From positions 1 to 64,000 of the forward strand of contig JAKPGY010000115.1 of the NCBI GenBank assembly GCA_029550685.1: a DNA stretch of 64,000 nucleotides. Reading direction: 5' to 3'. Positions within the stretch are counted from its first letter, which is position 1; the number at the start of each line of letters is the position of its first letter. Both the position numbers and the translations under genes were made by a program. This DNA comes from Bacillota bacterium. GTDB lineage: Bacteria > Bacillota > Syntrophomonadia > Syntrophomonadales > Syntrophomonadaceae. Shown one piece after another: positions 10,955 to 27,819 of this stretch. Under the pieces are notes generated by a model, which had not been told where the DNA came from, made no database searches, and worked only from the letters and a program-made list of their open reading frames with translations.

Positions 10955-12514
10955 ATGGCAGATAAGCCGGTTAAGGCCAATCAACAAGGTGAAGACAGAT
11001 TTCAAACTTTATTAAATAATGCCAATGCAGCCAGGGTTATCTCCCAGGCTGTGGAGGGTACTCTTGGACCACGAGGCTTGGATGTAATGATGGTAGACCG
11101 TTTTGGTGGCGTAGTGATAACCAATGACGGGGTAACCATCTTAAATCTTATGGAAGTAGGGCACCCGGCGGCCCAAATGATAATTAATACAGCTCGCTCC
11201 CAGCAAAAAGAAGTAGGGGATGGAACTACCACCACTACCATACTGGCTGGTGCCATGATTGCCGAAGGCTGTGCTCAGGTATTAAAGGGAGTTCCGGTAA
11301 CTAGAATAGTGGAAGGAATCCGGCTGGGGGTGGAGGCATGTTCCCTGTGGATAGACGAGATTTCTCGCCCCATCACTGATTTGGATGATCCTGAACTGGC
11401 TGCTATTGCCAAGATAGCCGGGCGCGGGGAGCAGGAACTGGCTGGGCAAATTATTGAAGGAGCTAAAATACTGGGAAAAGATATGCTGCTGAATCCAGAG
11501 TATAAATATGCCGATGCTGTTTATGCCAGGGAAGCAGCTGACAACAAAGTATTCCGGGGGGTTGTCATAAATAAACAGCCTGTTAACCGGGAAATGCCCC
11601 GCCAGCTACAGGATGCCATTATCCTGGTCATTGATGATGCCCTGGCGCCGGAGGAGATTAACGTAGAGGCCTTGAAGACCGAAGCCGGTTTTCAATATTA
11701 TCGCCAGTCCCGGGAAGACTATAAAAATAATCTGGCGCGCCTGGGCCAAATGGGAGTAAATATGGTCTTAGTTGATCGCAGTATTGATGATATTGCTGAA
11801 GAAATATTGACTGATGCTAATATAATGGTACTGCAGAGAGTATCATCCCGGGAATTGGAACGCTTATGCCGACACACCGGGGCTCGTAAAGTTAAACGCA
11901 CCGCCTTGAACCGTGATCCCGTCAGTCTGAGAGCCTATTTGGGAAGGGCGGAGAAGGTAATTGTAGATGAAAAACTGGAAGGGACCATGGTTCTCAATGG
12001 TAAAGGGGAAAGCCAGGTTACGGTTTTGGTAGGAGCCGCAACTACCGAAGTAGTTGATGAACGGGAACGTATGGCCCGGGATGCAGCCGCCGCAGTGCAG
12101 GCAGCTTTAAAGGGAGGAGTGGTTCCTGGAGGCGGTGCCCTGGAAGTATGGCTGTCATCTCGCTTGGAAGATCTGGCCCGTCAGCAGGAAGGCCTGATAT
12201 CCTATGGCATTCTGTGTGTAAAAGAAGCTTTAACCAGGACCTTTTTATGCATGGCTGCCAATGCTGGTTTTAATCCCTTGGAGAAGTTGGGGGATATCAC
12301 AGCTATGCAGCGTAAACATAGAGTTAACAGCATATCATTTGATGTAAATACTGGTCAGCCCGTAGATATGGTGGAAGTAAAAGTGCTTGATCCGGCTCTG
12401 GTAAAGTGCCATGCCATTGAAGCTGCCGGAGAGGTAGCTGCTGCCATTTTACGCATTGAAACCGTGATTAAAATGAAAGATGAAACTACCGACCATCCTC
12501 CGATGGTTGAATAG
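10955..12514 (+). CDS. Group III (archaeal-like) chaperonin of the TCP-1/cpn60 family
   Basis: This 519-residue protein is a cpn60/TCP-1 chaperonin. It has TLGPRGLDVMMVD near 36-48, VITNDGVTIL near 54-63, the ATPase motif GDGTT at residues 88-92, and ARDA with the hydrolytic Asp about residue 375. Its sequence resembles archaeal thermosomes and the group III chaperonins of Carboxydothermus-type Bacillota rather than GroEL. No groES gene is adjacent, as expected for chaperonins with a built-in lid. It sits between hrcA and grpE under CIRCE, the position reported for group III chaperonins. It presumably folds proteins together with the DnaK system. Confidence 0.88.
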   Translation: MADKPVKANQQGEDRFQTLLNNANAARVISQAVEGTLGPRGLDVMMVDRFGGVVITNDGVTILNLMEVGHPAAQMIINTARSQQKEVGDGTTTTTILAGAMIAEGCAQVLKGVPVTRIVEGIRLGVEACSLWIDEISRPITDLDDPELAAIAKIAGRGEQELAGQIIEGAKILGKDMLLNPEYKYADAVYAREAADNKVFRGVVINKQPVNREMPRQLQDAIILVIDDALAPEEINVEALKTEAGFQYYRQSREDYKNNLARLGQMGVNMVLVDRSIDDIAEEILTDANIMVLQRVSSRELERLCRHTGARKVKRTALNRDPVSLRAYLGRAEKVIVDEKLEGTMVLNGKGESQVTVLVGAATTEVVDERERMARDAAAAVQAALKGGVVPGGGALEVWLSSRLEDLARQQEGLISYGILCVKEALTRTFLCMAANAGFNPLEKLGDITAMQRKHRVNSISFDVNTGQPVDMVEVKVLDPALVKCHAIEAAGEVAAAILRIETVIKMKDETTDHPPMVE

Positions 12515-19302: not shown

Positions 19303-19671
19303 ATGGGTAGCAAGGATATTGGACGTAAACTTCAACAAGCCCGTGAGGATGCTGGGTTAAGTCAGGAGCAATTGGCTAGTATGCTGGGTTGTGCCCAATC
19401 AACACTATCCAACTACGAGAAAGGCAAGCGCCGAATATACCTCACGCAGTTGGAGAACATTGCAGAAATACTTAACAAACCCATTGAGTATTTTTTAGAG
19501 AGTAATCATAATGAACCGATAAAACATTTCAATCAAGTGGATACCAACATAGATGAACCAGAACTGCTGCAGATAGTCAACGCCTTATACGACTTACCCC
19601 GTGAGCAGAGAAAATCAGTAATGGACTACATTATCTGGCAGAAATCACGCCGCACACTTCAGGAAGGGTAA
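19303..19671 (+). CDS. XRE-family transcriptional regulator
   Basis: This 122-residue protein has an N-terminal Cro/C1-type helix-turn-helix (IGRKLQQAREDAGLSQEQLA, then LGCAQSTLSNYEKGKR, residues about 5-45). A C-terminal helical region with NALYDLPREQRKSVMDYI is typical of small XRE repressors. It lies 21 bp after mtaB and 12 bp before an acyl-CoA dehydrogenase gene. Its placement suggests control of that pair, but no operator could be assigned. Confidence 0.85.
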   Translation: MGSKDIGRKLQQAREDAGLSQEQLASMLGCAQSTLSNYEKGKRRIYLTQLENIAEILNKPIEYFLESNHNEPIKHFNQVDTNIDEPELLQIVNALYDLPREQRKSVMDYIIWQKSRRTLQEG

Positions 19672-19683
19672 GGGGGGAAGTAA

Positions 19684-20862
19684 ATGTTCCGAGATACTAT
19701 TTCGCCGGCAGATAAAGAGTTGGTATTTTTTACCCGGGATTTGGTTACCCGGCGAATTGCTCCTCAGGCAATGACCTATGATACCCATGGAAATGACTTT
19801 TTTGATAGTTCAGCTCTGGATATACTGGCTGAACACAATCTGCTGGCTCCCAACATTTCGCCTGACTATGGCGGAAGAGGATTAAGCAATCTGGTTACCG
19901 CCATGATATTGGAAGAAATAGCAGCTGGCTGTGCAGGTGTAGCCATTGCAGTAGCTGCCAACCTTCATGCTGTCAGCCCCCTGATGGTAGCGGGCACTAA
20001 GGAACAACGTAACCAGTACCTGCCCTTATTGACCAATGGTAAAACCGGTCTGGGCGCTATAGCTATGGTTGATACGGGAGTTAATCTGGATATCCTGCTG
20101 CAAACCGAAAAAGTATTCATACGCGGTTCTTCATTAAAAGCCGAACTAAATGGTGAAAAACAGACTATCATTAATGGCGGCAAGGATTATGTTATGAATG
20201 CAGCTACCGCTCAGTTCATTACTACTCTGGCAGAGTATACCAATGACGGCAGCCAAGGGTCTTCCGGGTTTCAAGTGATGGTGTTGCCTATGGGCACACC
20301 GGGACTTTCTATTGGAAATACCCGCCAGAAATTAGGATTGCGCTATTGCAGTACCGCTGAAGTTAATTTTGAGGATCTTAAAGCCGAACCCCACCATATG
20401 ATCGGTTCATCAACTCAGGGATTGGATATATTCAAAGAGTGTCTCTACCGGACCGTACCTTTTGTGGGAGCCGTCTGCGTAGGAGTAGCCCGGGCAGCTT
20501 ACCAGCACGCCCTGGAGGTGTCCAAGGAGAGGATGATTACAGGTCATCCGGTATTTGAGGAAAGCGCTGTAAGTCACAGTCTGGTGAATATGGCCGGCCA
20601 GCTGAATGCTGCCCGCCTCAGTGTTCACCAGGCCTGCTGGAATATTGACGAAGGCCGCGATTTTACTTTGACCTCTCCCCAGGCTAAGATAGTCTCCAGC
20701 CAGGCAGCCCAGAATATTACCTGGCGTGCTATGGAAATTGTGGGCGGCCAAGCATATGTCAGTGGTAACAAAGCCGAAAAATATCTGCGTGACGCCAAAA
20801 TGCTGTCTATTGTTGATGGTAGTGAGCAGTTTCATAGGTGCTTGCTAGCCTCACAATTGTAG
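19684..20862 (+). CDS. Acyl-CoA dehydrogenase family protein, Asp at catalytic-base position
   Basis: This 392-residue protein has the acyl-CoA dehydrogenase layout. Its N-terminal helical domain has ISPDYGGRGLSNLVTAMILE. A middle beta domain and a C-terminal helical domain (KAEKYLRDAKMLSIVDGSEQ) follow. In medium-chain enzymes the catalytic Glu lies in IYEGT; here the equivalent reads IVDGS, so Asp378 replaces Glu. The helix-G alternative position, used by isovaleryl-type enzymes, appears to be Thr. It may be active with Asp or may need its neighbour. The second paralogue starts 21 bp downstream, suggesting an operon and perhaps a mixed complex. Substrate unknown. Confidence 0.85.
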   Translation: MFRDTISPADKELVFFTRDLVTRRIAPQAMTYDTHGNDFFDSSALDILAEHNLLAPNISPDYGGRGLSNLVTAMILEEIAAGCAGVAIAVAANLHAVSPLMVAGTKEQRNQYLPLLTNGKTGLGAIAMVDTGVNLDILLQTEKVFIRGSSLKAELNGEKQTIINGGKDYVMNAATAQFITTLAEYTNDGSQGSSGFQVMVLPMGTPGLSIGNTRQKLGLRYCSTAEVNFEDLKAEPHHMIGSSTQGLDIFKECLYRTVPFVGAVCVGVARAAYQHALEVSKERMITGHPVFEESAVSHSLVNMAGQLNAARLSVHQACWNIDEGRDFTLTSPQAKIVSSQAAQNITWRAMEIVGGQAYVSGNKAEKYLRDAKMLSIVDGSEQFHRCLLASQL

Positions 20863-20883
20863 ACTCAAGGAAGGAGACGTGCT

Positions 20884-22056
20884 ATGGCTTTATATTTTTT
20901 GAGTGATAGTGACCGTGAACTAGTAATGGAAGTGCGAGAGCTTGCTTCCACTCAAATCGCTCAACGGGGTAACTATCTCGACATGATTGGCGACCAGGAA
21001 CCGGACTGGGTTATTCCGGCTCTGTTGGCAGAGCGCAATCTTTTAGCACCAACCATTCCCGAAAGCTATGGCGGCAGGGGGCTGTCAATGATGGCTACCG
21101 CTGCAGTAATAGAAGAGTTAGCAGCAGGGTGCGCCGGGGCTGCGGCTATTGTAGTGGCTAACAACTATGCTATAACCCCCGTTCTGGTAGCAGGCAGCAA
21201 ATCATTACAGGAGAAGTTCCTTCCTTTAATGACTCAGCGGGAGCCCCATCTGGCTAGTCCCGTAATTAACGACGTTCCCAGTGAAACGGATTTGGATCAC
21301 AAAGGGCCTATCCCGGAAGATATAACCCGTATTTCTACCACAATTCGTTTGGAAGGTAACCAGGTAGTTATAAATGGCAGCAAGGACTATATTTTAAATG
21401 GAGCTATGGCAGATTTCATGGTTTTGCTGGCCCGCAACATTGATTCCCGCCGCAAATCACGACTGCAGTTTGTGCTGGTTCCTGCCAATACTCCGGGTAT
21501 CAATATTGTCGAACCGGTAATGAAAATAGGTATGCGATCTGCCCATGCAGTAAGACTGCAGTTTAACGATGTTGCTGTGCCGGAAGAGTATCGGCTCGGC
21601 CGGCCCGGAGGAGGGTATTTCCTGCTGTTGCAGACCTTTGACCGCAATCTGGCTTTAGTAGGAGCAGTTGGAGTGGGAGTTGCCCGAGCTGCTTACGAGT
21701 TGGTGCGCGATCTAGCCCGGGAAAAGAACCTCCTGGGTAAAAACACCACCGCTAATTCCTATTTTGCTACTGCTTTGGCGGACATGAGCGCCTATATAGA
21801 TGCTGCCCGGTTGTCAGTAGCCCGGGCTGCCTACCATATTGACCAGGAGGGCAATTATTCGCGAGTTTCTACTATGGCTAAACTTTATGCTACCCGGGTT
21901 GCCCAACAGGTAACCTCCCGAGCGGTTGACTTAGTAGGACGTATGGGGTTTTTGGTGGGGCACCCAGCGGAAAAATTCCTGCGTGACGCTCAAATGTTAT
22001 CTATGATTGCCGGCAGTGATTACCTGCACCGCAAGACCGTAGCAGATCAGCTCTGA
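20884..22056 (+). CDS. Acyl-CoA dehydrogenase paralogue lacking the canonical catalytic Glu
   Basis: This 390-residue paralogue of the preceding gene aligns along its length (PESYGGRGLSMMATAAVIEE; AEKFLRDAQMLSMIAGSDY). The catalytic-base motif reads MIAGS, so Ala376 stands where Glu is expected. The helix-G position appears to be Asn, so neither usual base is present. The FAD-binding framework looks intact. A non-catalytic partner subunit, as in some actinobacterial alpha2beta2 dehydrogenases, or unusual chemistry are both possible. GGAAGGAGACG precedes the ATG. Confidence 0.85.
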   Translation: MALYFLSDSDRELVMEVRELASTQIAQRGNYLDMIGDQEPDWVIPALLAERNLLAPTIPESYGGRGLSMMATAAVIEELAAGCAGAAAIVVANNYAITPVLVAGSKSLQEKFLPLMTQREPHLASPVINDVPSETDLDHKGPIPEDITRISTTIRLEGNQVVINGSKDYILNGAMADFMVLLARNIDSRRKSRLQFVLVPANTPGINIVEPVMKIGMRSAHAVRLQFNDVAVPEEYRLGRPGGGYFLLLQTFDRNLALVGAVGVGVARAAYELVRDLAREKNLLGKNTTANSYFATALADMSAYIDAARLSVARAAYHIDQEGNYSRVSTMAKLYATRVAQQVTSRAVDLVGRMGFLVGHPAEKFLRDAQMLSMIAGSDYLHRKTVADQL

Positions 22057-23300: not shown

Positions 23301-24707
23301 GTGTTCAAACTTAGTACCTTACCTCAGAAATACCTGGATGTTATCGAGACTATTTTTAATGAGTTTGATGGTGCTCTGGTTATCGACGAAAACGGAATCA
23401 TCCGTATCATCACCGATTATTACTGCCGGGAAAGTGGTTTGTCCAAGGATAAGGTACTGGGCTGTAGGGTGGATGAGGTTTTTCCTCATACTCGTATGCT
23501 GGAGGTGTTGCGCACTGGTAAACCTATCATTGCTGATATATGGGAACTGAACGGGAAAACCCAGGTGGTATCCCGGGTACCAATTACTACGGAAGGCAGG
23601 ATTATTGGTGCAGCCGGGTTCAATATTTTCCGTTATTTAGATGATGCCCGGGGATTTGCTCGTCGTATTTCCAATATGTTTTCGGAATTAAAATATTATA
23701 AAGAGGAAGTCAAGCGTTTGTCATCGGCCAAGTATTCCTTAGCTTCCATAGTGGGCAGAAGTGATGCGATACTGGAAGCCAAAGAACAGGTGCGTATGAT
23801 AGCCTGTACTACTATACCGGTGTTGATCACTGGAGAAACCGGCACAGGAAAAGAACTGTTTGCTCATGCTATTCATCAGGAAAGCAACCGCCGGGAATAT
23901 CCCCTGATTAGAGTAAACTGTGCTTCGATTCCCGATAATTTACTGGAAAGCGAATTATTTGGCTATGAAGAAGGGGCTTTTACTGGGGCACGTAAAGCAG
24001 GTAAACCCGGTAAATTCGAACTGGCTGATAAAGGTACGCTATTTCTGGACGAAATTTCTGAGTTGTCCTGGATGTCTCAAGCCGGGCTGCTGCGAGTGCT
24101 GCAGGAGAAAGAACTGGAACGAGTGGGAGGCACTAAGACTATTTCCGTAGATGTACGGATAATCTCGGCTACCAACGGTTCTCTACGTGATATGGTAAGC
24201 CAGGGAAAATTCCGCAAGGACCTGTTCTTCCGTTTAGATGTTTTCCCGATTAACATCCCGCCTCTGCGAGAGAGAATGGAGGATTTGGAACCTCTTACCG
24301 AGTTCTTTATTAATCAATACAACCAGGAAAACGGAGGAAGGATAGAAGGTATTTCCAAGGAGGCTCTGGCCCGGTTGCATCAATATCACTGGCCGGGCAA
24401 TGTACGGGAATTGCACACTGTGATCGAACGAGCTTGCATCGATACCGGGGCAGGGAAAATAACCCTGAACAATTTATTGCGATTTGCCAATCAAAGGACA
24501 GGCGCCAATAACCGTAGTAGATACCAGGGGTTTGATCTGGCCAAGGCCCGGGAAGAAGCAGAAAAGCAGACCATCTTACGGGCTATAAAAGCCTGTGGAG
24601 GCAACAAGACCCAGGCTGCTCAATTATTAGGGCTTAGCCGTAGTACTTTATACTATAAAATGGAACAGTATCATCTCGATATTTCGCCGGCAGGATATTC
24701 TAAATAA
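23301..24707 (+). CDS. Sigma-54-dependent transcriptional activator with PAS domain
   Basis: This 468-residue enhancer-binding protein has an N-terminal PAS-like sensor (about residues 15-115) and an AAA+ domain. The AAA+ domain carries Walker A GETGTGKE (178-185), the sigma-54 contact loop GAFTGA (225-230) and Walker B GTLFLDE (245-251). A Fis-type helix-turn-helix at the end contains NKTQAAQLLGLSRSTLYYKM. It should activate sigma-54 RNA polymerase in response to a small-molecule or redox signal. A matching -24/-12 promoter lies downstream at 24869-24884, so the CoA-transferase gene is the likely target. The start is GTG. Confidence 0.93.
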   Translation: MFKLSTLPQKYLDVIETIFNEFDGALVIDENGIIRIITDYYCRESGLSKDKVLGCRVDEVFPHTRMLEVLRTGKPIIADIWELNGKTQVVSRVPITTEGRIIGAAGFNIFRYLDDARGFARRISNMFSELKYYKEEVKRLSSAKYSLASIVGRSDAILEAKEQVRMIACTTIPVLITGETGTGKELFAHAIHQESNRREYPLIRVNCASIPDNLLESELFGYEEGAFTGARKAGKPGKFELADKGTLFLDEISELSWMSQAGLLRVLQEKELERVGGTKTISVDVRIISATNGSLRDMVSQGKFRKDLFFRLDVFPINIPPLRERMEDLEPLTEFFINQYNQENGGRIEGISKEALARLHQYHWPGNVRELHTVIERACIDTGAGKITLNNLLRFANQRTGANNRSRYQGFDLAKAREEAEKQTILRAIKACGGNKTQAAQLLGLSRSTLYYKMEQYHLDISPAGYSK

Positions 24708-24715
24708 TTTGTAAA
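24698..24715 (+). promoter_or_regulatory. Candidate activator site 1 (degenerate)
   Basis: TTCTAAATAATTTGTAAA resembles the two better sites at 24729 and 24798 in its AT-rich centre and spacing. It overlaps the stop codon of the activator gene. Weak on its own. Confidence 0.25.
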
Positions 24716-24728
24716 TCGTTTAGCACAT

Positions 24729-24746
24729 TGTCTAATAATTAGAACA
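24729..24746 (+). promoter_or_regulatory. Candidate activator site 2
   Basis: TGTCTAATAATTAGAACA is an imperfect palindrome sharing TGT-N2-AATAATT-N3-ACA with the site at 24798. It lies about 125 bp upstream of the -24/-12 promoter, a normal distance for an enhancer site. Confidence 0.4.
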
Positions 24747-24797
24747 CCGGAAACGATAAACTACAGCAGTGGCACAGGTAGAACATCTGGCCAAGGG

Positions 24798-24815
24798 TGT
24801 ACAATAATTTGTACA
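24798..24815 (+). promoter_or_regulatory. Candidate activator site 3
   Basis: TGTACAATAATTTGTACA has perfect 7-bp arms (TGTACAA / TTGTACA). It lies 69 bp from the site at 24729 and about 55 bp upstream of the -24 element. Confidence 0.5.
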
Positions 24816-24868
24816 TCAAGCGGGGTTGTTTCATCCACTTTGCAGGTGAAAACCGCATTTATAGGAAC

Positions 24869-24884
24869 TGGCATGGTTTGTGCT
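24869..24884 (+). promoter_or_regulatory. Sigma-54 (-24/-12) promoter
   Basis: TGGCATGGTTTGTGCT matches the consensus TGGCACG-N4-TTGCW at most positions. The invariant GG and GC are exactly 10 bp apart. The CoA-transferase ATG lies 40 bp downstream behind AGGGGGT. It lies inside the over-extended reading frame upstream of 24924, which supports the later start. Confidence 0.75.
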
Positions 24885-24923
24885 ATACCTCCTGTTGAAT
24901 TCATTTTCATAGGGGGTATTATA

Positions 24924-26273
24924 ATGGCGATTTCAGAAAAGCGACTACCAAAAACACAGGTCAAGTATGCTAATTGGCAAGAAGAATACCAGGCTAAATT
25001 AATGGATGCAGCAGACGCAGCAGTTTTGATTCGCAACAATGATGTAATCATGATGGCAGGAGGCACATGTATTCCCCATGATTTTTCGGTGGCTTTGAGC
25101 AATAGGGTCTCAGAACTGAAAAACGTTACTATCTGCCTGGGATTGGCACTAAAACTGTATGAATACATGCAGCCCCAGTATCAAGAGAACATCCACATTG
25201 AAACTCCTTTTGTGGGACCAGTAGAACGTATGTGCATGGAGTGGAAAACCGCCCAGTATATACCGGTCCACTTAAACCAGCTGGCTCAATGGATGGATTA
25301 CCGGAAACCTAACGTAACTGCTTTTGTGGTTACCCCTCCTGATGAAAACGGGTATATGAACCGTTCCTGTTTCGGCGGTCTGGTTCCCCGGCGGGCTATT
25401 AACCGTGCTGATCTGGTAATTGCCGAGGTTAATCCCCGCACTCCCTGGCTGGTCAGCGATGATCTGAAGATCCATGTTTCTGAAGTCGATGTTATTTTGG
25501 AATCGGATGCTGACCTAGTGGAAATACCGGATATTCCTATCACCGATGTGGAAAGACAAATCGCTGGTTATATCGCTGACATGATTCCTGATGGTTCAAC
25601 GGTTCAGCTGGGATTGGGAGGCTTGGCCAATGCAATCGGCTATCTCCTGCATGACAAAAAAGATCTGGGAATTCACACGGAAGTAGTACAAAACTCTATC
25701 ATGGAATTGATGGAATTGGGAGTAGTTAATAACAGCAAGAAAAACATTAATCCTGGCATTACTACCGGTACTTTCTGTGTAGGCAATGCCAAGCTGTGGG
25801 ATTATGTGAACCACAACCCCAAATTCTGGTTTACGGAAGTGGAATATAATAATGATCCTTACGTAATAGGGCAGCACGACAATTTGATATCGATTAACAA
25901 TGCCTTGATGATGGATTTGACCGGCCAGGTAGCTTCAGAATCTATTCGTCACCGTCAATACAGTGGCACCGGTGGGCAGGTAAACTTTATCTGGGGCGCT
26001 CACTTCTCGAAAGGCGGCAAAAGCATTCTCGCCCTTAACTCCAGCTTTACCGACCAGGATGGCAAACTGAAATCCCGGGTGGTACCTTTCCTTCCGGCCG
26101 GCACCATTGTGTCAACATCCCGTAATGATGTGGAATACGTGGTTACCGAATACGGAGTAGCCAATCTGCGTTTTAAGAGTGTAAGTGAGCGTATTAAGGA
26201 AATGATTAGTATAGCTCATCCTCAGTTTAGGGATGAACTGCGTTTCCAGGCCCAAAAAATAGGCTGGGTTTAA
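24924..26273 (+). CDS. Acetyl-CoA hydrolase/transferase family CoA-transferase
   Basis: This 449-residue class I CoA-transferase resembles butyryl-CoA:acetate and 4-hydroxybutyrate CoA-transferases. It has TVQLGLGGLANAIG followed by GIHTEVVQNS. Glu253 aligns with the catalytic Glu that forms the CoA thioester. GTGGQVNFIWGAHFSKGG forms the CoA-binding turn. It would exchange CoA between acetate and a short-chain acyl-CoA in the cytoplasm. The start at 24924 has an AGGGGGT site. The upstream sigma-54 promoter and activator gene suggest inducible expression. Exact substrate is not settled. Confidence 0.88.
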   Translation: MAISEKRLPKTQVKYANWQEEYQAKLMDAADAAVLIRNNDVIMMAGGTCIPHDFSVALSNRVSELKNVTICLGLALKLYEYMQPQYQENIHIETPFVGPVERMCMEWKTAQYIPVHLNQLAQWMDYRKPNVTAFVVTPPDENGYMNRSCFGGLVPRRAINRADLVIAEVNPRTPWLVSDDLKIHVSEVDVILESDADLVEIPDIPITDVERQIAGYIADMIPDGSTVQLGLGGLANAIGYLLHDKKDLGIHTEVVQNSIMELMELGVVNNSKKNINPGITTGTFCVGNAKLWDYVNHNPKFWFTEVEYNNDPYVIGQHDNLISINNALMMDLTGQVASESIRHRQYSGTGGQVNFIWGAHFSKGGKSILALNSSFTDQDGKLKSRVVPFLPAGTIVSTSRNDVEYVVTEYGVANLRFKSVSERIKEMISIAHPQFRDELRFQAQKIGWV

Positions 26274-26729: not shown

Positions 26730-27819
26730 TTAGTCTTCATAAATCATTTTTCGGGTCATCCCGCCATCTACTACCAGTTAATGCCGGTGACGAAATCATT
26801 GCCTGGAGCAGTCAGTACAGGCAGGCTCGGGCAATATCCTCCGGCTTTCCTACCCGCCGGGCTGGATGCTGTTCATGGTCAATGGGGCGTAATTGGTCAT
26901 AATCTCTTGTTTCAATCCAGCCTGGAGATATGCAGTTAACCGTAATTCTATCTTTGCTTAAAGAAGCTGCCAGGGCATGGGTAAGGGCCACAATTCCTCC
27001 CTTGGTAGCGGCATAGGCTTCGGAATTAGGCTCGGACATAAGGGCTTGGGTGAAGGCAATATTGACTATAGACCCATCTTCTTTATTCTGGCGCATATAT
27101 TGGGCGGCTTCCCGTGAACCCAGGAAAACACTTCTTAAGTTGGTATTCAGCAGATCATTCCATTCCTCTACAGTTAAATCATAGAGTGATTTAAACAGCC
27201 CTTTGCCGGCATTGTTGATTAAAAGATCTATGCGTGCGTATGTTTCATAGGCCACCTTCATTAACCGGACAATATCTTCCTCCCGGCGCACATCGGTGGG
27301 AACAAATATCGCCTCACCGCCCTGTTTATAAATCAGCAAGGCTGTCTCCTGTCCGTTTTTTTCATCTGCATCGGCTATAACCACCCGGGCACTTTCAGCG
27401 GCATACTGTACAGCAATTATCACCTGTGGCGCAGACTACGATGGACGAAAACATCGGGCACGGCTTACGCAGGAGTATTAGCCGGGCGAGTGACTACGAC
27501 GAACCGTTGCAACCCACGGCGAAACTGAGGGCTGCGAAGCGGAGCGAGAAACAGGATGTTTCGAGCAGCGAGGACTGAGTGCATGGATGCCGAATTCCAA
27601 GCGGTCCGCTTCGCACCGAAGCAAGCCGATGTGTTACAGGTGAGGAGTCTTGGAACGAGCCGGCTAATACCCCTGCATCCTGCCTAACACTCCTGCCAAG
27701 CTTAGCGGAAGCTAAAGCTTCCGCTAAGCTTAGATGAAAGTCATTTTCACAGCAATACCTTTCCCAATGTCATGGGCAGCACCGGTTACAATTACGGTTT
27801 TACCTGAAAAGTCCATCAT
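26730..27819 (-). pseudogene. Short-chain dehydrogenase/reductase, disrupted
   Basis: The N-terminus (MMDFSGKTVIVTGAAHDIGK, start at 27819 behind AGGAGG) carries the SDR nucleotide motif. It is cut after GIAV by a 331-bp insertion (27418-27748). Removing the insertion and one 8-bp copy restores GIAVQYAAESARVVIADADE in frame. The middle has NNAGKG and the catalytic YAATK. Near the 3' end the frame breaks after ACLY at 26812. Remnants of the usual C-terminus continue in other frames: GNDFVTGIN, then LVVDGGMTRKM ending at 26730. At least two frameshifts plus an insertion mean the gene is dead. Confidence 0.88.
27418..27748 (-). mobile_element. 331-bp non-coding insertion, structured repeat copy 2
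   Basis: The insertion is bounded by the 8-bp duplication ACAGCAAT (27410-27417 and 27749-27756, + strand). Positions 27418-27697 repeat the block 4749-5028 in reverse. The inverted pair CAGGAGTATTAGCCGG (27470-27485) / CCGGCTAATACCCCTG (27660-27675) is kept. The remaining end holds a perfect 15-bp hairpin (27698-27731, AAGCTTAGCGGAAGC with loop TAAA) absent from copy 1. No terminal inverted repeats and no open reading frame are apparent, so movement would depend on a protein supplied in trans or on an RNA intermediate. Confidence 0.82.

Follow-up and report, generated by a model that had tools for sequence, protein, structure and literature searches.

The locus examined here raises the question of what role could be played by two consecutive open reading frames (ORFs) whose products have the fold of acyl-CoA dehydrogenases (ACADs) and carry the catalytic base of these enzymes at neither of its two usual positions. 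They lie in the 64,000-nt stretch of DNA analysed (the window), which corresponds to positions 1–64,000 of contig JAKPGY010000115.1 (assembly GCA_029550685.1, Syntrophomonadaceae). The two ORFs, named A and B, follow a gene coding for an XRE-type regulator. The features on which the question turns are the following:

19303–19671 (+): XRE/SinR-like regulator, 122 aa; HTH_3 domain (2.1e-15) and match to SinR (1b0n)
19684–20862 (+): A, putative ACAD-like pseudoenzyme, 392 aa; PF00441, PF02771 and PF02770; 11 orthologues
20065–20133 (+): segment of A (residues ~128–150) in place of the TEPxAGSD FAD loop, from alignments; prediction of low confidence
20815–20817 (+): codon GAT for Asp378 of A, motif IVDGS, at the MCAD Glu376 position by alignment
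20884–22056 (+): B, putative ACAD-like pseudoenzyme, 390 aa; Pfam ACAD domains; 10 orthologues
21259–21339 (+): segment of B (residues ~126–152) in place of the TEPxAGSD FAD loop, with ~10 extra residues, from alignments and pLDDT
21940–21942 (+): codon for Arg353 of B, GG changed to GR at the FAD-ADP motif, by alignment
22009–22011 (+): codon for Ala376 of B, motif MIAGS, at the MCAD Glu376 position by alignment

A and B are intact ORFs that share a reading frame, the stop of A and the start of B being 21 bp apart. The stop of the XRE gene is 12 bp upstream of A, and a purine-rich, ribosome-binding-like sequence precedes both A and B. A scan for promoters and terminators around this cassette gave counts close to the shuffle mean. 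The N-terminal, middle and C-terminal ACAD domains were detected over the Pfam cut-off in both proteins, and the closest solved structures to either of them are ordinary short- and medium-chain ACADs. The AF2 model of A had a pTM of 0.82. A and B share fold and domains with ACADs of the MCAD/SCAD type, including PDB 7p98 (Foldseek TM ~0.8 for A; 26–29% identity), but differ from them in lacking both Glu376 and the helix-G Glu, in having a replaced flavin loop and, in the case of B, in a broken ADP motif.

A preliminary description of this DNA had assigned an Asp (Asp378) in the first gene and an Ala (Ala376) in the second to the site of the catalytic base, and had considered the alternative base in helix G to be missing. 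Alignment to MCAD bore out both points. The Glu376 column holds Asp378 in A and Ala376 in B, while MCAD position 255, which corresponds to the helix-G base of IVD and LCAD, is occupied by Thr257 in A and by Asn255 in B. Among Syntrophomonadaceae and their relatives, all 11 A orthologues have the Asp and all 10 B orthologues the Ala, an invariance that excludes chance or a sequencing error as their origin. Ser380 and Gln382 were, like Asp378, invariant in the A orthologues. A Glu at either catalytic position (MCAD 376 or helix G) was found neither in A and B nor in any of the orthologues aligned to them (11 for A, 10 for B).

The parallel that had been drawn with the Asp base of cyclic ACADs turned out to be weak. 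In the cyclohex-1-ene-carboxyl-CoA dehydrogenase of PDB 7p98, whose catalytic base we take to be Asp91, the Glu376 column is a Thr, and Asp91 aligns with His95 of A. The idea that Asp378 is a base of the cyclic-ACAD type was therefore rejected. No literature on Asp91 of 7p98 was found among open-access papers.

The changes extend to the flavin site. In the alignments, the TEPxAGSD flavin loop is replaced in all A and B orthologues, and the position of MCAD Ser142 is Leu in A and Glu (once Ala) in B. The AlphaFold models had pLDDT values <50 at residues 130–148 of A and 129–150 of B, in both cases within the replaced loop, and were also unconfident at the C-terminus. Further, B has lost residues on the ADP side of FAD: Arg281 is changed to Asn, Lys or Gln, Phe284 to Leu, and Gly353 to Arg, the latter in 10 of 10 orthologues (GG to GR in the FAD-ADP motif). 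In A, Arg281 and the GG motif are mostly kept. The loss of Thr168 was considered as a sign of inactivity and dropped, since a 415-aa metabolic ACAD also lacks it; residue 168 is hydrophobic in A, in B and in that enzyme, and alone is not diagnostic.

The A-B pair is kept at a single locus in genomes of the same genus and of the same family, located between mtaB and, mostly, a HIT gene; the gene run 5′ of the locus in the relatives is grpE-dnaK-dnaJ-prmA-rsmE. Relatives containing the pair include Syntrophomonas sp. DTU018, S. zehnderi OL-4 and Thermosyntropha lipolytica DSM 11003, and both genes were present at the ten loci (10/10) at which the contig extends far enough. The dN/dS ratios of A and B relative to three congeners were 0.05–0.10, similar to those of nearby housekeeping genes (prmA, rsmE and mtaB). 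As judged from their sequences, A and B are conserved pseudoenzymes under strong purifying selection, not genes in decay.

The XRE protein has an N-terminal HTH followed by a short C-terminal helical tail, and lacks a ligand-binding domain. A profile built for it (A4) matched SinR (1b0n) over positions 6–116, tail included, with an E-value of 2.6e-8. When 63 genomes of the order were searched with this profile at a cut-off of 1e-18, 41 matches were obtained (E 7e-57 to 4e-41); the gap in scores was sharp, nothing being found between 4e-41 and the cut-off. An ACAD gene in the same strand lay directly 3′ of the XRE gene in 39 of these 41 matches, the distance between the gene models being 1–22 bp in 38 of them and 67 bp in one. 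In the 40th (locus L096), the adjoining ACAD gene is interrupted by the end of the contig. At locus L088 (5023–5379, genome G020), the XRE gene is retained between mtaB and the HIT gene, and both A and B are missing. An ACAD profile (A5) applied to the 63 genomes gave 49 matches with E-values of 5e-139 or lower; beyond these came a fragment cut by a contig end (2e-114) and three matches from another family (1e-111 to 2e-114) that were not linked to XRE. Apart from the B genes, a fragment at a contig start and these three unlinked matches, every ACAD-profile match lies directly behind an XRE gene. No XRE gene of this type was found beside the other ACAD loci of the source genome.

When the search was widened to the phylum, 398 sampled genomes yielded four further XRE matches outside the order, three of them with an ACAD gene (L103, L104 and L105). 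At L106 (5866–6482, minus strand, genome G170), the XRE gene is followed by an internally deleted ACAD remnant in which the N- and C-terminal ends are joined in frame; a large glycyl-radical-enzyme-like gene lies beside the two. Since the XRE gene stands alone in G020 and is accompanied by a remnant at L106, the regulator may act by itself in these two lineages, the ACAD partner not always being needed.

A tree of 77 ACAD proteins, 51 of them XRE-linked, placed the linked ones in a single clade (support 100/100), apart from the other 26. The A, B and A+B clades each received a support of 99–100, and A and B stem from one ancient duplication (100/99). Position 376 is occupied by Glu in 22 of the linked proteins, by Asp in 11, by Ala in 10 and by Gly in 8, the Gly clade being sister to A+B (94/91). 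The tree of the XRE proteins separated the same groups with lower support (98 for the Gly clade; the group of the analysed locus was unsupported). The helix-G Glu was absent from every XRE-linked ACAD group; the adjacent metabolic ACAD of 415 aa has Glu255 in helix G in 11 of 11 cases. The 22 linked proteins with Glu376 also keep the FAD motif, and could function as enzymes or as sensors of a redox type. The Gly376 proteins (L082-L084, L089, L046, L050, L045 and L092) have an intact FAD motif and a Gly in helix G, and constitute a second base-less set; their genes adjoin that of a 530-aa ACAD and, in several cases, acyl-CoA synthetase genes. With Glu, Gly, Asp or Ala at the base position, catalysis appears to be dispensable in the linked clade. 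The distribution is best read as an ancestral Glu probably lost either once, before the split between the Gly clade and A+B, or more than once after it. The regions 5′ of 33 XRE genes were searched for operators in the form of gapped palindromes; no shared motif clearly exceeded shuffles, apart from a weak GTAATA-N2-type dyad in the Gly clade (six sequences).

A regulator gene lying beside its targets is the usual layout of local regulators. The Glu and Gly cassettes usually adjoin acyl-CoA genes, often divergently transcribed, in two types of context: either the 415-aa ACAD gene and a butyryl-CoA:acetate CoA-transferase-like gene, or the 530-aa ACAD gene and an acyl-CoA synthetase gene. The source genome has a second cassette, Glu-bearing (L085), near an ACAD/acyl-CoA gene pair of such a kind. 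The Asp/Ala cassette of the analysed locus lies within a run of chaperone and RNA-modification genes, with no obvious target adjoining it. Between hrcA and grpE-dnaK-dnaJ lies a gene for a 519-aa chaperonin (10955–12514) of archaeal-like (group II/III) appearance; some Firmicutes carry archaeal-like chaperonins in their dnaK operon. Downstream of the cassette, positions 23301–26273 include a sigma-54 activator gene and then a butyryl-CoA:acetate CoA-transferase-like gene, the latter scoring 314 bits, under the family cut-off of 675. The unit formed by these two genes is also present at loci L032, L033 and L036 of relatives, and is missing from others. It is followed by an ORF (26812–27423, minus strand) for a 203-aa short-chain dehydrogenase-like protein that apparently lacks the N-terminal nucleotide-binding start and the C-terminus, and is possibly a pseudogene.

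The XRE neighbour and the wider linked family point to regulation, a role that the preliminary description had not contemplated. We consider it rather probable that the ACAD-fold protein is an acyl-CoA-sensing partner acting in trans on the XRE regulator, and that at this locus it has been duplicated and has lost catalysis. The three-gene cassette (XRE, A, B) would descend from a more widespread two-gene cassette containing the XRE gene and then that of a dedicated ACAD-fold protein. The latter would bind acyl-CoA and control the DNA binding of XRE through the C-terminal helical tail, as SinI does on SinR, which would place β-oxidation and CoA-transfer genes under acyl-CoA-responsive control. 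In the lineage of the analysed locus, the sensor would have been duplicated to give a probable A:B heteromer, with loss of the general base (Asp/Ala) and replacement of the flavin loop. It is the association of the genes that suggests complex formation, acyl-CoA binding, an effect on DNA binding and the target genes. Against this explanation count the lack of a shared operator in the search described, the XRE genes of L088 and L106 with no intact ACAD gene, the location of the Asp/Ala cassette away from an obvious target, and the 22 linked ACADs with Glu376 and the FAD motif. A broader proposal, which we hold more tentatively, is that the ACAD fold could serve the XRE family in trans as a sensor of acyl-CoA, or of the acyl/enoyl-CoA ratio, allowing syntrophic fatty-acid oxidisers to read the state of β-oxidation. 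As part of this proposal, the family might retain the successive steps: Glu plus FAD motif, loss of the base to Gly, and duplication into an Asp/Ala pair that lacks the flavin motif.

Control of the XRE protein by an ACAD-fold partner appears most likely given the full-length match to SinR and the precedents of SinR–SinI and BzdR. SinR is also a small HTH regulator with a C-terminal helical domain, and formation of the SinI–SinR heterodimer abolishes its binding to DNA (PMC3163267). SinR is thus controlled in trans, and the ACAD-fold protein would be the putative counterpart of SinI, as suggested by gene linkage. SinI of B. subtilis, however, is a 57-aa protein, not an enzyme fold that binds acyl-CoA. 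In BzdR, an HTH-XRE regulator, the effector domain is of shikimate-kinase origin and binds benzoyl-CoA; its evolution required that the enzyme activity be lost (PMC3602430). BzdR/BoxR and the present system have in common an XRE DNA-binding domain and an enzyme-derived fold, which recognises a CoA thioester in the former and is proposed to do so here. They differ in that BzdR/BoxR are one fused chain with a shikimate-kinase fold, while here the ORFs are separate and the fold is a duplicated ACAD.

Other explanations were weighed against that of an ACAD-fold sensor. That A and B are decaying duplicates heading for loss would fit the disappearance of their catalytic and flavin residues and the relative at L088 without either gene, but is very improbable in view of their dN/dS ratios, the invariance of the altered residues and a synteny conserved across several genera. 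The preliminary description had envisaged a heteromer with one structural subunit. The heteromer itself is plausible, as A and B come from one duplication and occur together wherever the contig extends far enough; the partition into one active and one structural subunit is not supported by the FAD residues, since A lacks the flavin loop and B the ADP-side residues. In the known α2β2 ACADs, both the catalytic Glu and the flavin belong to the α subunit, β contributing the binding of the ADP part of FAD (PMC11153573). ChsE4-ChsE5 and ChsE1-ChsE2, from cholesterol breakdown, resemble A and B in being encoded by two diverged ACAD genes with catalytic features missing in one of them. Their composite site, however, keeps the Glu, flavin and ADP parts, whereas neither of the possible A/B sites has the full FAD/base set, and A/B have an XRE gene attached. 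The classical form with one active subunit was therefore rejected.

A and B could still form a heteromeric ACAD catalysing an unusual reaction, with Asp378 as base or acid, B structural, and XRE a mere local repressor. Their joint presence at 10/10 loci, their common duplication, the invariance of Asp378, Ser380 and Gln382, and the Arg281 and GG motif mostly kept in A agree with this. It is nevertheless unlikely, because no complete site is obtained either way and XRE linkage is also seen in the sister clade, which has Gly at the two base positions. Of about the same low probability is that XRE simply regulates the ACAD genes in the conventional way: the Glu proteins would be enzymes, the Asp, Ala and Gly ones moonlighting or substrate-binding proteins, and none would have a transcriptional role. 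Regulator genes commonly precede their target genes in an operon, and the 22 linked ACADs with Glu376 and the FAD motif suit this explanation. It would leave the regulator without any sensor, although its partner has an acyl-CoA-binding fold; moreover, genuine metabolic ACADs usually adjoin the cassette as separate genes, and the XRE–ACAD pairing survives the loss of the base.

The regulation of metabolism in syntrophic fatty-acid oxidisers has been described as little known (PMC4324140), and no description of a transcription regulator based on an ACAD was found in the open-access literature searched. If the proposed role of the ACAD-fold protein is correct, an acyl-CoA sensor derived from a β-oxidation enzyme would provide a direct molecular handle on regulation in these oxidisers. 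It would also be a case of transition from enzyme to regulator whose stages (base kept, replaced and doubly lost) are all represented by extant members, each step being testable. In these genomes, some genes annotated as ‘acyl-CoA dehydrogenase’ may then code for regulatory proteins.
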